A stretch of 64,000 nucleotides of DNA, from assembly GCA_029981855.1 (NCBI GenBank), contig JARRCS010000006.1, positions 1 through 64,000 on the forward strand, given 5' to 3'. Below, piece by piece: positions 3,127-16,123 of this stretch. The first letter of the stretch is position 1. The number at the start of each line of letters is the position of its first letter. Origin of the DNA: Halanaerobiales bacterium. Its GTDB lineage: Bacteria > Bacillota > Halanaerobiia > Halanaerobiales > DTU029. The notes below the pieces were generated by a model. The model was not told the origin of the DNA and did not search any database. It saw only the letters and a program-made list of their open reading frames with translations. Position numbers and translations under genes: made by a program.

Positions 3127-4458
3127 ATGACTACTATATATAATTTTAGGATGAATTGCAAGACAAATGTTAAAATAAATTTTAATGGTGGTGATTTATC
3201 TTCTGATTCTGGGCTATTACTTTATAAAGATTTCATTGAGGCAATGAATATAAAAGAAACCCTTATCCAGAACATTTCTTCTTTAAATGATGGTAAAAAT
3301 CACAGAAAACATGAAAATATTGATGTCCTTTTACAAAAAACATATCAGAAAATAGCAGGTTATCATACCGATAGTGCTGCCGATAAACTCAGGAATGACC
3401 CTGTATTACAAGAAGTAACTGATAAGGATAATTTAGCATCACAGCCTACAATATCCAGGTATAATAACTCTTTAACCAAAGATTCGATGAAAGAATTTCA
3501 ACAGGCAAATTTAGCTATTTTAGATACTGCTTACCAGATTGAAAAGCCCAATTTATTCGTTTATGACCTTGATTCCACTCATGTTAATACATGTGGTGAA
3601 CAATATGGTTCAGCTTATAATAGCCATTATGGAGAAACAGGATTTCATCCTTTGGTCATGTTTAATGGCCATAATGGAGACTTTCTTAAAGGCTTGCTGA
3701 GAGCAGGTAATGTTTATACCAGCAGAGATGTTGTACGGTTTGCTGAAGATGTTTTTATACGACATCAAAATAATTATCCTGAGAGTAAAAAATATGTCAG
3801 GGCTGATAGTGGATTTGCTAAACCAGCACTTTATCAATGCTGTGAAAGACATAATATACAGTATGCAATTCGCTTGAAAGCTAATAGTATTTTGTATAAA
3901 AAAGCTGAATTCCTGTTAGAGAAATTAAATCAAAAAGTTAGCAGCTCAAAAAACGGGTATGGGGTTGTATATGGTTCTTTTTCCTATAAAGCAGGTAGTT
4001 GGATAAAAGAACGCAGGGTAGTGGTTAAAATTGAACAAAAACCAGAAAAACTATTTCCTGACTATACTTTTGTAGTAACTAACCTTGATGCCAAACCTAA
4101 AGCTGTAATTAAATTTTACAGTAAAAGAGGTACTATGGAAAACTTCATTAAAGAAAGCAAATATGGTTTTGCTTTAGATAAGTTATCAAGTACTGATTAC
4201 TGGGCCAATGCTAATAAGTTACAGCATACTATACTTGCCTATAATATTCACAATTTAATGCGTAGATTATGTTTTCCAGAAGAACATCAAAAAGATACTA
4301 TACAAACCACCAGGTTAAAAATCATAAAAATAGCAGGTAGAAAAGTAACCTCTGGTAGATATACCTATTTCAAATTAAGTAGTCATGCAGTATATAAAGA
4401 TCTTTTTCTTGAGATTCATAACAACATAAGGAAGATAGCCTATTCAAAAGCAGCATAA
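3127..4458 (+). CDS. IS1380-family transposase
   Basis: 443 residues, full length and uninterrupted. The N-terminus (NFNGGDLSSDSGLLLYKDFIEA) is the typical opening of the IS1380 / DDE_Tnp_1 group 4 transposases. A DDE catalytic core is suggested by YDLDSTH (around residue 147), RADSGF (around 226) and the late acidic segment TMENFIKESKYGF (around 340). The start is set by AAGGAGG seven bases before the ATG, although that site lies inside a hairpin. The gene is on the plus strand inside inverted ends, against the surrounding minus-strand genes. It looks intact, so the element could still be active. Confidence 0.93.
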   Translation: MTTIYNFRMNCKTNVKINFNGGDLSSDSGLLLYKDFIEAMNIKETLIQNISSLNDGKNHRKHENIDVLLQKTYQKIAGYHTDSAADKLRNDPVLQEVTDKDNLASQPTISRYNNSLTKDSMKEFQQANLAILDTAYQIEKPNLFVYDLDSTHVNTCGEQYGSAYNSHYGETGFHPLVMFNGHNGDFLKGLLRAGNVYTSRDVVRFAEDVFIRHQNNYPESKKYVRADSGFAKPALYQCCERHNIQYAIRLKANSILYKKAEFLLEKLNQKVSSSKNGYGVVYGSFSYKAGSWIKERRVVVKIEQKPEKLFPDYTFVVTNLDAKPKAVIKFYSKRGTMENFIKESKYGFALDKLSSTDYWANANKLQHTILAYNIHNLMRRLCFPEEHQKDTIQTTRLKIIKIAGRKVTSGRYTYFKLSSHAVYKDLFLEIHNNIRKIAYSKAA

Positions 4459-10929: not shown

Positions 10930-10957
10930 GAAAAGCAGGAGAATTATCTCCTGCTTT
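10930..10957 (-). terminator. Terminator of the SARP-type regulator gene
   Basis: AAAGCAGGAGA and TCTCCTGCTTT form an 11-bp stem with a four-base loop. On the minus strand it is followed by TTTTCTGTTTTT, so it terminates transcription arriving from the regulator at 11087-12280. Confidence 0.75.
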
Positions 10958-11086: not shown

Positions 11087-12280
11087 CTAAATAATCATTT
11101 TCTCTAATTCGCTTGAACTATCGGCACCTTTAATAATGCTAAATTTAATGGTTACAGGATTAATATTATTGATAGATAAAACCTCTTCAAGCCTATTTTT
11201 TATTTTCTTGGCCGCTCTGCTTCCCGTTTGATACAGCATTAATAAAAGAGTTTTGGGGTTCCAATGGCAAATCACGTCACCCTCCCTCAGCTTGCTCTGC
11301 AAAATATTCAAAAGCTTTTTCTGTTGCTCCGTCCTCTTCCCTTCAATGGTCATCAGAGCAAAAACTTCACCAGTTCTTTTCTGCCTTCTTAACTGCAACT
11401 CATAAATCAAATCAAATACCTGCCGCTTACAGAAAAAAGAACCTCTTGCCTTGCTTTCTGTATTAATAGCATCCAGTATATTGACTTCCTGCTCACTGAA
11501 GTTGCCATACTCCAGAAACATATCCTTGATCACTGGACCGGGTTTGAGACCAAACTCTTCATGTAGCATTCTGGAATACTTATGATACATTTTTATTGCC
11601 TCTACATACATGCCCGCCTTTAAAAGATTAGATATAATACTCCGGTACAATTCTTCCCGGTAGGGATCAATCTCCAGACCCTGTTGACAGACCTGGTCTG
11701 CTCCCAGATAATCTTTTTTCACATCTATCAACAGTGTTGCACCTCTTAATACGGCATCAATATAGAGTTCCCGGTAATGCTGGCGGAGGTTAAAAGTCCA
11801 GTCATTATATAAATCCTCATCCAGTAAATCGTTTTGATATAATGTAATTGCTTTTTTAAATAACTGGATAGCCCTCCCGAGATTTTTTGTTTCTTCCTGA
11901 AGATTAATAGCTGTTTTATAATTAGAGTCAAATTCTTCAATATCCAGCCAGCACCATGACGGTTTATCAAACCAGTAGAGGCCTTTAGAACTTTTGATTA
12001 TTTCCTTTCCTTCATAACCAAGAAGTGAATCCAGTATTTTGCGCGCATAGTATACTGTTGTATGCAAATTATGAATCTGGTCCCTACTACTATCAGGCCA
12101 GAGGAGTTCCATAAGAATATCCTTTTGTATTTTCTTCCCGTAATGAGAAACAAGATATTTGAAGATGGCCAGTGCCTTTCTTGACTTCCAGTCTCCAGCA
12201 GATATATTTCTGTTGTTCACCTTCATAGAAAAAGACCCTAAAAGATATATCTTTACCATAGGTTTATTTTCCTGATACAT
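11087..12280 (-). CDS. SARP/BTAD-type transcriptional regulator with a GGDEF-like tail
   Basis: The N-terminus is an OmpR-like winged helix (VKIYLLGSFSMKVNN, then WKSRKALAIFKYLV), followed by a bacterial transcriptional-activation (BTAD) domain of helical repeats (FKKAITLYQNDLLDEDLY; LEIDPYREELYRSI). The last ~125 residues (from about FDLIYELQLRRQKRTGEVFALMTIEG) resemble a diverged GGDEF fold without the catalytic motif. The start chosen is the ATG at 12280, because GGAGG lies seven bases before it; a longer frame from 12319 would start inside that site. It lies 133 bases after the CsgG-family gene on the same strand and may control that secretion cassette. Target and signal are unknown. Confidence 0.75.
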   Translation of the reverse strand: MYQENKPMVKIYLLGSFSMKVNNRNISAGDWKSRKALAIFKYLVSHYGKKIQKDILMELLWPDSSRDQIHNLHTTVYYARKILDSLLGYEGKEIIKSSKGLYWFDKPSWCWLDIEEFDSNYKTAINLQEETKNLGRAIQLFKKAITLYQNDLLDEDLYNDWTFNLRQHYRELYIDAVLRGATLLIDVKKDYLGADQVCQQGLEIDPYREELYRSIISNLLKAGMYVEAIKMYHKYSRMLHEEFGLKPGPVIKDMFLEYGNFSEQEVNILDAINTESKARGSFFCKRQVFDLIYELQLRRQKRTGEVFALMTIEGKRTEQQKKLLNILQSKLREGDVICHWNPKTLLLMLYQTGSRAAKKIKNRLEEVLSINNINPVTIKFSIIKGADSSSELEKMII

Positions 12281-12413
12281 TATTATGCCTCCAATGGTAT
12301 ATATTACTTTAGCTTCCATTATATGTATTCTATATCAAGAGAAATATTCCTTCATTAAAATGTAAATTATTGGATTATATTTCCCTGTGCCCATTTTTTT
12401 ATCCCGAGAATAG

Positions 12414-13340
12414 TTATTTATTTACAGCTGCTCCAATTGCTACACCCAATAATAAAACCCAGAATCCAGCATTTGATTTCTTTTCTGTCTTTGGAACATC
12501 TATGCTGGAGAAGGCCTGCTTTACATTAGCAACTTCTTCAGAATCTAAAGAACTTTTAATACCTGTCTCTTCTGCAAAGAAATTAACCGACATATCATAA
12601 ACAGCCGCATCGATTAAACCCCTGACAACCAGGTTAATGGGTTCTTGAAAGCCTTTTCCGGATTCAAAATCAACAAATACACTTTCACCAAAGAAGGATA
12701 AAGCGTCTAATCCGGTTCTTTTTCCCTGTATACTATCCTTTAAAGAAACGGTGTATACAACTTCATTAGTTGAAGAATCGACTACTCTTAAATCTATTGC
12801 AGCATAAGCTATTACTCCATCACTATTAAATCCCTTTCCATCTACTTTTAGTTTGGTTCCGCCGGTGTCAACTATCCCGTATTCTGTAATAGCTCCAGTG
12901 ATGATATATTTTGACTCAAGAATGTCATGTATACTCATAGAAGAATTTCCATTAAATCCGTTTTTCTTCTTAGCTTTCAAATCCTGTTCAGTCATAAAAG
13001 CATTCAGGATTGAACGATCAGCTACAGTAAACTGGCCTGATTTTAAAAGTGAATTAATGAGCATATCAGTTGCACCCTGGGAAATAGCTGTGCTTTGCGA
13101 AGTATAATCCTCCAACTCCAGAAATTGGCCTGTCCTGTCAAATAATTGATAAACAGCTACGGGAATCTTCTGGTCAGGCTCGGGAAGACCCTTTAAGTAT
13201 TCAGTTATCTGTGTAACATTATATACGGGCAAATCTAAGTCTTTTGCTTCCTCATTTTCAGCGGCCTGTACAGTAGAAAAAGAGAACACAACCAACAATA
13301 CTAATAAAATAAAAATCTTTATTTTACTACTACTTAACAA
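12414..13340 (-). CDS. CsgG/HfaB-family secretion protein
   Basis: 308 residues. Residues 1-26 are a signal peptide (cleavage near VQA-A). The body fits the CsgG family: IPVAVYQLFDRTGQF (around 59-73) near the N-terminus, a QGATDMLINSLLKSGQFTVADR segment, SKYIITGAITEYG, and AAIDLRVVDSSTNEVVYTVSLKDSI. CsgG forms the outer-membrane channel that exports curli subunits in Gram-negative bacteria. Here the lipobox cysteine is absent, and a hydrophobic C-terminal segment (GFWVLLLGVAIGAAV, around 292-306) is present; both are unusual. It is the third gene after two small secreted-protein genes on the same strand, which are the obvious candidate cargo. Confidence 0.75.
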   Translation of the reverse strand: MLSSSKIKIFILLVLLVVFSFSTVQAAENEEAKDLDLPVYNVTQITEYLKGLPEPDQKIPVAVYQLFDRTGQFLELEDYTSQSTAISQGATDMLINSLLKSGQFTVADRSILNAFMTEQDLKAKKKNGFNGNSSMSIHDILESKYIITGAITEYGIVDTGGTKLKVDGKGFNSDGVIAYAAIDLRVVDSSTNEVVYTVSLKDSIQGKRTGLDALSFFGESVFVDFESGKGFQEPINLVVRGLIDAAVYDMSVNFFAEETGIKSSLDSEEVANVKQAFSSIDVPKTEKKSNAGFWVLLLGVAIGAAVNK

Positions 13341-13369
13341 AATGATTACCCCCTTTCAGAAATATAAAA

Positions 13370-13726
13370 CTAATTTAACATACTATTATATGGACTAGTA
13401 TTAGGTCCATTAGAAACATCAATATTCAATTCTCCTTGTTCCATATTATTATCAATCCATATCTGGTTTAGTCCACCTTCATAGATGCCATCATAATAAG
13501 TACCCTGTTCAATTGTCCCGCCTTCGTAAACATAATAATAATAATTATGCTCTGGTTCCCCATAATGTAATGTCCTTGCAATATCCCAGTCTAATTTACG
13601 AGCTTGCTCAGTTTTAAATGAATATCTCATTAAAGATGTACTAGATGTAGCATAAGCAGATACTACCAAAAGAGAAACAATAGAAATAATCAGTATAATA
13701 ATTAGACTTAATTTTGTTTTTTTCAT
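13370..13726 (-). CDS. Small secreted protein, possible curlin-like subunit
   Basis: 118 residues with a clear signal peptide (hydrophobic 7-24, cleavage near AYA). The mature part ends in Gly/Gln/Asn-rich short repeats: YEGGTIEQG, YEGGLNQIW, MEQGELNI. Spacing between EGG/EQG units is about 10-14 residues, reminiscent of but not matching the curlin S-x5-Q-x4-N-x5-Q repeat. The gene lies 30 bases upstream of the CsgG-family gene and 90 bases after the beta-rich secreted protein gene, which suggests a minor subunit or nucleator. Family membership is inferred from context; a simple secreted hypothetical protein is the alternative. Confidence 0.6.
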   Translation of the reverse strand: MKKTKLSLIIILIISIVSLLVVSAYATSSTSLMRYSFKTEQARKLDWDIARTLHYGEPEHNYYYYVYEGGTIEQGTYYDGIYEGGLNQIWIDNNMEQGELNIDVSNGPNTSPYNSMLN

Positions 13727-13787
13727 TTAATATGTTAACCCCCTTTTTGGTTTAAAAGTAAAGGACAAAGGCAAAATTACAAACAAG

Positions 13788-13807
13788 AGGGGGAGAAAAC
13801 TCCCCCT
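13788..13807 (-). terminator. Hairpin between two secreted-protein genes
   Basis: AGGGGGAG and CTCCCCCT form a perfect 8-bp stem with an AAAA loop (13788-13807). On the minus strand it is followed by CUUGUUUGUAAUUUU. It sits nine bases after the stop of the first gene of the secretion cassette, so it may reduce expression of the genes that follow. Confidence 0.6.
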
Positions 13808-13815
13808 GCATTTCA

Positions 13816-14652
13816 TTAATTACCCGAGACTGCGTAATTGGGTATATACGCACTACCATTGTAATTCCATACAGAATAATGAGAGGCACTACCAGCAGTT
13901 CCATCACCTGTAACATAACCGCCACTCTCTCTCTCAACACGATTTGGTGCTTCAGCATATAAACTAATATAACCAGTACCCGTTGCACTTACATTGGCGT
14001 TGGTATAGCAGCCACAACCCCTGCCAAAATTAAAGGAATTTCCACCACTCTCACTGCTCATGGCATTAATCCTGATTGTACCTGCTCCCTCAGTCCATAA
14101 ACGCCCATAAGCGTCATCACTTGCAGTAATGGAATGATCTATTATGAAATTACCGTTAGCCTGAAATTGATAACCTTCAGATGTTCTAGATCTTCCGTAG
14201 TTACTACATCTCATTTCTGCATAATTAGTCCATGTTCCGTAAGCCATCTCAGCAGTATCGTCAGTCCAGATATAAGAATAGACTCTTTGGCCTGAATCAC
14301 CATACATACTGGTATGGCTATCGAGCCTTTGAGTAACAAACTCCATTACTCCACCTACTCCACCGCCATCTACACTGGCATTAACCTCTACATCAAAAGT
14401 ATCCACTCCATATGAATAAGGATTATCATCAAAGTCTCTCGCTGTCAGGGTGCCTGCAAAATTATCATAGGCTCCGGTGTAAAAAGTAGATGTCACATCA
14501 TCACCACTATCACCATACCCGGCACGAATTGTAGTTGTGAAATCACCAGAGTAACCATTCCAACTGCTTTCTACATTTGTTTCAGCTAAGCCTATACCTG
14601 TAAAAGCCAGAACAAATACTACTACTAGCACAAAAGCAAAAATTTTCTTCAT
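13816..14652 (-). CDS. Beta-rich secreted protein, candidate main cargo of the CsgG-family cassette
   Basis: 278 residues with a signal peptide (1-23, cleavage near GLA-E). The mature chain is rich in Gly, Ser, Thr, Asn and Tyr with few Lys, consistent with an exported beta-structured or adhesive protein. A short cysteine cluster GCGCY lies around 211-215 and a further Cys at about 150. No family was recognised. It is the first gene of the cassette and is followed by a stem-loop, as expected for the most abundant product. Assigning it as cargo of the CsgG-like channel is inference from gene order only. Confidence 0.6.
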   Translation of the reverse strand: MKKIFAFVLVVVFVLAFTGIGLAETNVESSWNGYSGDFTTTIRAGYGDSGDDVTSTFYTGAYDNFAGTLTARDFDDNPYSYGVDTFDVEVNASVDGGGVGGVMEFVTQRLDSHTSMYGDSGQRVYSYIWTDDTAEMAYGTWTNYAEMRCSNYGRSRTSEGYQFQANGNFIIDHSITASDDAYGRLWTEGAGTIRINAMSSESGGNSFNFGRGCGCYTNANVSATGTGYISLYAEAPNRVERESGGYVTGDGTAGSASHYSVWNYNGSAYIPNYAVSGN

Positions 14653-14750
14653 TTAATTAATACCCCTTCCATTTAGTTTATTTTCTCTTGACTTGCCACA
14701 AAAAAAACGAATTAATTACCTTCCTAATTATTCACCTCCTGTTGTGATAT

Positions 14751-14777
14751 TCTTGTAGAGAGGGATCATCCCTACAA
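14751..14777. promoter_or_regulatory. Stem-loop in the leader region of the secretion cassette
   Basis: CTTGTAG at 14751-14757 pairs with CTACAAG at 14771-14777, with GGGAT/ATCC pairing inside. It lies about 100 bases upstream of the first secreted-protein gene. It could be a regulatory stem or a remnant of the adjoining IS110 relic; no U-run follows on either strand. Confidence 0.35.
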
Positions 14778-14824
14778 GTCGAAAATTTGTACTTCATTCT
14801 AACTTTTGATAAAATTAATTTAAC

Positions 14825-14888
14825 GGGATGGAGTGCATTGCAACTCCCTTTTTAGGGAATAACGCTATAACATTGTGTACTCCATCTC
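14825..14888. repeat. Imperfect inverted repeat beside the IS110 relic
   Basis: GGGATGGAGT (14825-14834) matches the complement of ACTCCATCTC (14879-14888) at 9 of 10 positions. A smaller stem TCCC/GGGA lies inside. It borders the transposase fragment and may be a scar of a small inserted element. Confidence 0.4.
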
Positions 14889-14909
14889 GTTTTGTTTTAC
14901 ACTTTGTTT

Positions 14910-15081
14910 TCAAGGATGGTGGGTTAGGCAAAAGAAACTAGCTGAAGGAAAATCTAGAAAGACTGCTTTAACCTGTTTGCAACGTAGACTGGTGGATATC
15001 ATATTTGCTATGATGAGAGATAGATCTGCTTACAAACTACCTGAAATACCTGATTATCAAATTTTAGATAAAACTAGCTAG
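14910..15081 (+). pseudogene. IS110-family transposase, C-terminal fragment
   Basis: About 55 residues in one frame, including LAEGKSRKTALTCLQRRL and IIFAMMRDRSAYKLP, match the extreme C-terminus of IS110-type transposases (full length 300-400 residues). The rest of the gene is absent. AT-rich sequence follows to about 15200 and may be the old non-coding end of the element. From 15200 to 15645 I see no other supported gene. Confidence 0.6.
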
Positions 15082-15645
15082 AGAGATGTTTCATTATCAC
15101 CCCTGCCTTTAATTTTTTAAAAAATGAATATCTACCCATAGGGGATCTCTAGCTCAAATTAGTTTCCACTTTTTTACATGTAAAATTTTTACTTGACATA
15201 GGACGTCTACTTAAAATACTATTAAACTAACATTATTATTATATGAAGCTCATTTTAATATATTACCATTAATTGTTAAAATAAATATGTAATTAAGATA
15301 GTGTTAAATCCCCATGAAATTAATATTATTGAGTGGTACAATTTATTATTTATGGTAATTATATCTTATTGTTCTCAAAAAATACTAAAATTTCGTTCTG
15401 TTTTTTCGCCTCATCTATCTTTCTAAACTTTAAACAACAATTCATTGATACTTGAATACTTTTTCCAGTAGAAAATGTTGTAAGACTCAATTTGAAAATG
15501 CAAGTAACTATGTAGGTAAAAAATAATCCTCTGCTAATTATCAACAGGGTAAAACTGTTGATAGCTAACAAAGGACCAAGTTAAATAAAAGTTAAAATAT
15601 TTATCTTTCTAAGGACGCGCGACAGCGCGGGCGAAACTAGGACAT

Positions 15646-15900
15646 CTATTTTACGCAAAGGAGATCTATTATATCATCAGGTTCTGCATAATGTCCATTA
15701 AGAAAGTCATGTATTAACTTTTTATATTCATTAACAGAATCATCTACGCCCATTAATTCCAGATTAATCTTTATTAACATATTTATGTAGTGATTATAAA
15801 TATCAACATTAAAAACCTCACTTTGTAAATTATCAAGGGCGTTTTGCTTGGCTGCCATACTTAAAATAATGATGTTTATCATTTTGACGGTTTTATTCAT
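15646..15900 (-). CDS. Small hypothetical protein
   Basis: 84 residues from the ATG at 15900, or 87 from a GTG at 15909; the upstream sequence AAGGAAAGTGGGTG could serve either. Composition is helical with many Asn and Ile: a hydrophobic start (MINIIILSMAA), then charged helices ending PDDIIDLLCVK. No family was recognised. It lies alone between the IS110 relic and the helicase gene, with a GC-rich hairpin (15614-15631) just beyond its stop. It could be a host gene or a passenger of the degraded mobile region. Confidence 0.45.
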   Translation of the reverse strand: MNKTVKMINIIILSMAAKQNALDNLQSEVFNVDIYNHYINMLIKINLELMGVDDSVNEYKKLIHDFLNGHYAEPDDIIDLLCVK

Positions 15901-16027
15901 AATTTTCACCCACTTTCCTTGAAAAATAGTATAGGTATATATATTTCTCCATTGAATAAAAAAAACCTTTTAAATTTGGAATATAATTACATATATGAAT
16001 AATTTTTCTGCTAATGAGTGTTTCGCC

Positions 16028-16087
16028 ACTAAAAAAACCTCTAATTCCATCGGAAATATAACCGAAAGAACTAGAGGTTTTTTTCGG
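16028..16087. terminator. Bidirectional intrinsic terminator
   Basis: TAAAAAAACCTCTA and TAGAGGTTTTTTT (within 16032-16084) form a long A/T-flanked stem, extended by CCAC/GTGG outside. U-runs arise on both strands. It ends the SNF2 helicase transcript on the minus strand. Confidence 0.8.
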
Positions 16088-16123
16088 TGGTCAAAATTTC
16101 AGCCGGGTTATTAGCAAATCTAT

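Follow-up and report, generated by a model that had tools for sequence, protein, structure and literature searches.

Curlin and CsgG co-occur in 98% of the curlin-bearing genomes surveyed (PMC10192328), and the pore is usually regarded as dedicated to curlin. Curli have been reported in one Firmicute, the first such case, in which csgE is missing (Dueholm et al., 2012; PMC3521004); PMC4551309 gives the name of this Firmicute as Halanaerobium. For a CsgG homologue paired with dedicated surface proteins of another kind, the nearest precedent is HfaABD, the holdfast anchor of Caulobacter, in which the CsgG homologue HfaB serves HfaA and HfaD, the former being curlin-like (PMC6707917). Finally, csgG occurs outside a full curli operon in Methylophilales and Pelagibacter phages. 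Here we describe a four-gene cassette on the minus strand of a 64,000-nucleotide stretch (the window) from a Halanaerobiales bacterium (contig JARRCS010000006.1, which is contig G000:C19 of the 2.59-Mb source genome). The cassette is a derived branch of Halanaerobiales curli, with which it shares the regulator, the gene order and the position of a hairpin, and not an unrelated pathway. Our favoured reading, which we consider probable, is that this variant of Halanaerobiales curli exports a fast-evolving surface protein other than curlin through a derived type VIII (curli-type, CsgG-CsgF) system.

With the E. coli CsgG-CsgF pair the cassette shares a CsgG domain with both membrane hairpin regions and a small secreted partner whose mature N-terminus has the form M-x-aromatic-x-aromatic (M3, F5 and F7 in CsgF; PMC6957492). 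Unlike E. coli curli, however, it lacks CsgA, CsgB, CsgC, CsgD, CsgE, the lipobox and the constriction residues Y51/N55/F56, and its regulator belongs to another family. As in Caulobacter, a CsgG homologue is found in place of ordinary curli, and the pore protein of the window matches the HfaB model with 65.5 bits. This score is far below the HfaB cut-off (300), though, no relative of HfaA or HfaD was detected, and no holdfast polysaccharide genes were seen in the cassette. The phage genes also differ: identity is about 28%, whereas the csgG of the window is chromosomal and has its own regulator and a cargo-slot gene.

The cassette and its CsgG-family pore protein

Positions 11087-14652 contain four intact open reading frames (ORFs) in the order 278, 118, 308 and 410 aa, as the initial annotation had listed them. 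All four have good ribosome sites, and the N-termini of the 278-, 118- and 308-aa proteins are signal-peptide-like. The features are as follows.

13816-14652 (14652-13816), minus strand: P0003, 278 aa with a signal peptide, encoded in the substrate (curlin) slot, without curlin repeats.
13788-13807, minus strand: terminator-like hairpin with an 8-bp stem and a UUUU loop, AGGGGGAG-TTTT-CTCCCCCT, between the substrate-slot gene and the secretion genes.
13370-13726, minus strand: P0002, 118 aa with a signal peptide and the mature N-terminus SLMRYSFK; most likely a divergent CsgF.
12414-13340, minus strand: P0001, 308-aa CsgG-family outer-membrane pore subunit with a TTG start and a C-terminal hydrophobic tail.
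11087-12319, minus strand: P0004, regulator of the SARP/BTAD type, 410 aa, ending in a degenerate GGDEF-like domain.

P0001, which had been assigned to the CsgG family from the letters of the sequence, matches Pfam CsgG (PF03783) with 109.7 bits (E 1.6e-31; cut-off 20.8), and its match to the E. coli CsgG chains in the PDB covers nearly the whole domain (E 2.6e-16). It is the sole CsgG-family gene in the source genome. The genome also encodes an Omp85 protein, as expected of a cell with an outer membrane, in keeping with the CsgG secretion cassette proposed earlier for diderm Firmicutes. An AlphaFold model of P0001, built from two sequences, has CsgG structures as its best Foldseek matches (E 4e-12; predicted local distance difference test score, pLDDT, 56.5).

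We aligned the CsgG proteins of the window, 19 relatives from the class that includes Halanaerobiales, and E. coli. Both membrane beta-hairpin regions of the pore form align to E. coli CsgG without large gaps. The lipobox cysteine, whose absence from P0001 had been pointed out before, is also absent from all 19 relatives; since only the E. coli row has one, its absence is a trait of the group, in which membership of the CsgG family does not depend on it. The C-terminal extension ending in a hydrophobic segment (NAGFWVLLLGVAIGAAVNK), likewise seen earlier, is peculiar to P0001 and to a single other CsgG, encoded by the locus L046 described below. Moreover, P0001 has the loop LELEDYTSQSTA in place of the E. 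coli constriction KPYPASNFSTA. In these two proteins the constriction loop is about as long as in E. coli and lacks Y51/N55/F56; curlin-bearing relatives likewise lack these residues, mostly in a shorter loop.

A variant of the Halanaerobiales curli plan

CsgG-family matches were found in 19 of 32 genera among the relatives. Curlin repeats occur in 11 of 38 Halanaerobiales genomes, most of the order being without curli. Ten of these 11 also have a strong CsgG match, and in the remaining one (G021) curlin and CsgF lie on a short contig. A strong CsgG match without curlin is found in exactly two genomes of the order, G000, the source of the window, and G010. In the source genome no Curlin_rpt match was found anywhere, and CsgE gave no match over cut-off in any of the 38 genomes, so that the reported lack of both holds for the whole genome.

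The curli loci compared were L032-L047, L047 coming from another order of the class. Those of curlin-bearing genomes are ordinary curli: they have curlin-repeat genes, a hairpin, a gene for a family we call F2, CsgF and CsgG, and most of these operons have a BTAD regulator as a neighbour. Pfam Curlin_rpt was confirmed on example proteins. Two examples of the relatives' CsgF score 37.8 and 45.8 bits with Pfam CsgF, the family profile matches the PDB CsgF (E 3e-4), and csgF lies directly upstream of csgG in most loci. In eight of ten folded stretches the last curlin gene is followed by a strong hairpin that sets it apart from the genes of the machinery. The window follows this plan in reduced form, with a substrate slot, a hairpin, one small gene, csgG and a BTAD gene. 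It thus shares with these operons the CsgG branch, the adjacent regulator, the order of substrate, hairpin and machinery, the gene in the CsgF slot directly upstream of csgG, and the lack of a lipobox and of CsgE. In contrast to them, the source genome has no curlin-repeat protein and no F2, its putative CsgF is beyond the Pfam model, and its CsgG has a longer constriction loop, the hydrophobic C-terminal tail and a long branch of its own. The earlier interpretation stands only in part. Missing CsgE and lipobox do not mark a separate pathway, because Halanaerobiales curli operons share both; what is distinctive is the replacement of curlin by non-curlin slot proteins, the tail of CsgG and the altered constriction loop. 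Although the cassette would work in the manner of curli export, we do not class it as a curli system, since the search for the defining feature, the curlin repeats, was negative.

The joint conservation of the four genes, which had been raised as a check, is seen in one further genome. G010 (the metagenome-assembled genome Soudan_4) belongs to another family, and its locus L046, on the contig that L052 also represents, repeats the four-gene plan exactly, hairpin included, in a different genomic context. When genome contigs were scanned for the CsgG branch of the window only L052 was recovered, and no relative was found in the viral contigs searched. In the CsgG tree the proteins of the window and L046 form a clade (support 100/100) on the longest inner branch. 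Conservation between the two cassettes declines from the pore (61% identity) over P0002 (36%) to the protein in the substrate slot, which is not alignable, a gradient that fits the expectation for an exposed cargo.

The stem-loop after the 278-aa gene (13807-13788) is likely a partial terminator. The fold stability of the 99-nt intergenic stretch that contains it is unexceptional (z -1.4), and that of the hairpin at the equivalent site of L046 is z -4.0; the significance of the window hairpin lies in the conserved position rather than in stability alone.

Two further observations concern the relatives. The F2 family, conserved proteins of about 180 aa with signal peptides that are encoded between the curlin genes and csgF (L032:1053-1601 and 14 homologous ORFs in L033-L047), has no Pfam or NCBIfam match, and its C-terminus ends in alternating aromatic residues. 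F2, which is absent from L046 as well as from the window, is possibly a stand-in for CsgE or an outer-membrane barrel. Moreover, some Halanaerobiales curli operons have two tandem csgG genes (L035:6318-7904, L036:733-2453, L038:6157-7813), whose products could form mixed pores.

The proteins in the CsgF and substrate slots

P0002 and P0003 had been described as unrecognised secreted proteins, and indeed neither has a Pfam family match. The initial annotation had also listed CsgF as missing, which is probably wrong. The gene for P0002 lies 29 bases upstream of csgG, in the slot held by csgF in the relatives, and its product is most likely a divergent CsgF, as judged from three sequence comparisons: a full-length profile search, a pairwise profile comparison and a ranking test. 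In the first, a two-sequence profile of P0002 and its L046 homologue, signal peptides included, was run against the 38 genomes. Its best non-self match is the CsgF of G017 (E 5.5e-4), and its nine weak matches also include the CsgFs of G037 and G030. The other two used mature regions, because the effect of the signal peptide had to be removed. With hhalign, the mature P0002 and CsgF profiles give a collinear 78-column alignment. The mature P0002 profile furthermore ranks CsgFs first, second and third among about 986 non-self frames (the open frames of the window and the relative loci), and 10 of 15 CsgFs are within the top 24 non-self matches. None of 300 column-shuffled profiles put at least eight CsgFs in the top 24 (maximum 7), and the reversed profile put none there.

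The mature N-termini read SLMRYSFK in P0002, SIMKYTYK in its L046 homologue, TMSWSFQ in the relatives' CsgF and TMTFQF in E. coli CsgF, which binds CsgG via F5 and F7 (PMC6957492). P0002 thus retains the pattern M-x-aromatic-x-aromatic-[K/R/Q]; a hidden Markov model of the N-terminal 33-35 residues alone gave no P0002-CsgF link. The loop that forms a second constriction in E. coli CsgF is shortened in P0002. The description of P0002 as repeat-containing did not hold up, as it has only a few Y/G/E-rich echoes, which are not retained in the homologue.

For P0003 no Pfam, NCBIfam or PDB family was found apart from the signal peptide, and no homologue in its own genome or in 398 genomes of the phylum. 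Weak matches to peptidase and SLH-type proteins (E about 0.005) were rejected as unrelated. The QxGxxN motif is missing from it, and its internal repeats do not exceed those of shuffled sequences. Its composition, however, is curlin-like. Mature P0003 has 43.9% G/S/T/N/Q and 4.7% K/R, compared to 46.3% and 3.1% in the 282-aa slot protein of L046, 43.7% and 5.3% in the curlins of the loci, and 26.5% and 11.3% in other ORFs. Of 190 other locus ORFs just two reach such a composition, namely the L046 counterpart and, in the curli operon of G017, a small ORF. The similarity between P0003 and its L046 counterpart is limited to the signal peptide. Since the two sequences are not homologous, a shared role as cargo is argued from position and composition only; for P0003 itself, position, hairpin and composition suggest that it is the cargo.

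Several results weigh against this interpretation of the cassette. The Pfam CsgF model gives no match to P0002; across the same 38 genomes, neither does the mature-region P0002 profile match a CsgF nor does the CsgF profile find P0002. The hhalign comparison has a P-value of only 0.003, its score being reached by 2 of 400 column shuffles. The fold prediction of P0003 failed (pLDDT 36) and lends no support to its earlier description as beta-rich, fibre formation by P0003 is a conjecture, and 216 of 300 shuffles score as high as its comparison with the 282-aa protein. The model of P0001 is of low confidence (pLDDT about 56), and Y51/N55/F56 are not retained. Finally, the variant is found in two genomes only, so that its conservation rests on a single comparison.

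We also considered that the 118-aa protein is the main export, as a small fibre subunit or nucleator, the 278-aa protein being an independent surface protein whose own transcription unit ends at the hairpin. This we find unlikely. The hairpin does set the 278-aa gene apart from the rest, and, apart from the pore, P0002 is the sole secreted partner for which the second genome has a detectable homologue. In the relatives, however, a hairpin likewise divides the curlin genes from the machinery, and csgF is usually the next gene upstream of csgG. The P0002 profile points to CsgF, and the curlin-like composition belongs to P0003, not P0002. A different possibility is an eroded curli remnant, in which curlin and accessory genes were lost, the rest is drifting and the 278-aa gene is a chance neighbour. 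The absence of curlin repeats, CsgE and F2, the strong divergence of P0002 from CsgF and the many genomes of the order without any curli would agree with it. We nevertheless hold it to be quite improbable, because a decaying set would not retain its layout and a 61% identical pore over the distance to another family's genome and a different context; the four ORFs are also intact, with good ribosome sites. That P0001 is instead a CsgG-like envelope protein of the LpoB, PelC or FlgT kind, with a periplasmic or scaffolding role, is very improbable: LpoB matches weakly (19.5 bits) and was rejected below its cut-off (22.3), and although FlgT and PelC are among the lower-ranked fold matches and P0001 has no lipid anchor, CsgG scores 109.7 bits with an alignment over both membrane-hairpin regions, the top fold matches are CsgG and the gene lies within a curli-type operon.

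Regulation, proposed mechanism and significance

P0004 was rightly taken for a SARP/BTAD regulator, as it matches BTAD with 55.2 bits (cut-off 22.1). For an N-terminal winged-helix DNA-binding domain, its match to Trans_reg_C is below cut-off (23.2 bits, cut-off 26.2), compared to 30.3 bits in the L046 homologue. In P0004 and its relatives the C-terminal degenerate GGDEF-like domain is a weak match (at most 23.4 bits, cut-off 23.8). P0004 homologues adjoin most Halanaerobiales curli operons examined, and regulators ending in such a domain were seen at L046:5666-6850, L037:5186-6361 and L044:11496-11945 as well as in the window. The GGDEF-like tail is possibly a protein-side link to cyclic di-GMP (c-di-GMP). 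Moreover, at five loci of the relatives, curlin genes are immediately preceded by c-di-GMP riboswitches of three Rfam families (RF01786, RF03169 and tandem RF01051).

L032:93-179, plus strand: c-di-GMP riboswitch 5' of a curlin gene.
L033:9676-9762, minus strand: c-di-GMP riboswitch 5' of a curlin gene.
L038:1855-1943, plus strand: c-di-GMP riboswitch 5' of a curlin gene.
L039:2919-3006, plus strand: c-di-GMP riboswitch 5' of a curlin gene.
L044:10372-10458, minus strand: c-di-GMP riboswitch 5' of a curlin gene.
L044:5618-5855, minus strand: c-di-GMP riboswitch 5' of a curlin gene.

A limited literature search turned up no paper that ties c-di-GMP riboswitches to curli operons. A further c-di-GMP-I riboswitch (L032:3133-3208, plus strand) is found just 3' of csgG, and the gene after it (3220-3738) encodes a secreted 172-aa protein whose family was not recognised. 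No c-di-GMP riboswitch was found in the window or in the L046 leader. Two other hairpins flank the cassette.

14752-14778, minus strand: 10-bp hairpin, CTTGTAGGGA-N7-TCTCTACAAG, in the 5' leader of the 278-aa gene; from its fold a possible, weak regulatory element.
10932-10957, minus strand: terminator-like hairpin 3' of the regulator gene, the probable end of the transcription unit.

L046 has the 10-mer TTGTAGGGAT of the leader hairpin too, 144 nt ahead of its substrate-slot gene; this similarity of the two leaders is by itself not significant. The stretch of about 1.5 kb between the cassette and a gene for a SNF2-type helicase (14653-16123) contains no convincing gene, only small ORFs (70 and 87 aa).

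For an exporter of a non-curlin cargo, we propose the following scheme. The BTAD regulator probably activates transcription from ahead of the 278-aa gene, and the hairpin 3' of this gene would terminate most transcripts, so that cargo is made in excess over the machinery. P0001 and P0002 would be exported by Sec and act at the outer membrane, where P0001 may form a CsgG-like multimeric pore. P0002 would be a shrunken CsgF whose mature N-terminal peptide lines the outer part of the pore lumen. P0003 would cross the pore unfolded and remain at the cell surface, either as an adhesin or as a subunit of a fibre. More broadly, we see an even chance that Halanaerobiales have converted one branch of the curli exporter into a CsgG-CsgF pore with a swappable slot for non-curlin cargo, in which the sequence of the cargo varies while composition, position and hairpin are kept; this would show that curlin repeats are not needed for export by CsgG.

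CsgG pores serve in nanopore sensing. If our reading is true, the cassette would provide a minimal CsgF together with a natural CsgG whose constriction loop is different. It would also separate the needs of the pore, perhaps unfolded, low-charge, Gly/Ser/Asn-rich chains, from those of the fibre, the curlin repeats. Curli-type export would be extended in the diderm relatives of Firmicutes, where its regulation differs too, with BTAD regulators and, in the relatives of the window, c-di-GMP riboswitches.

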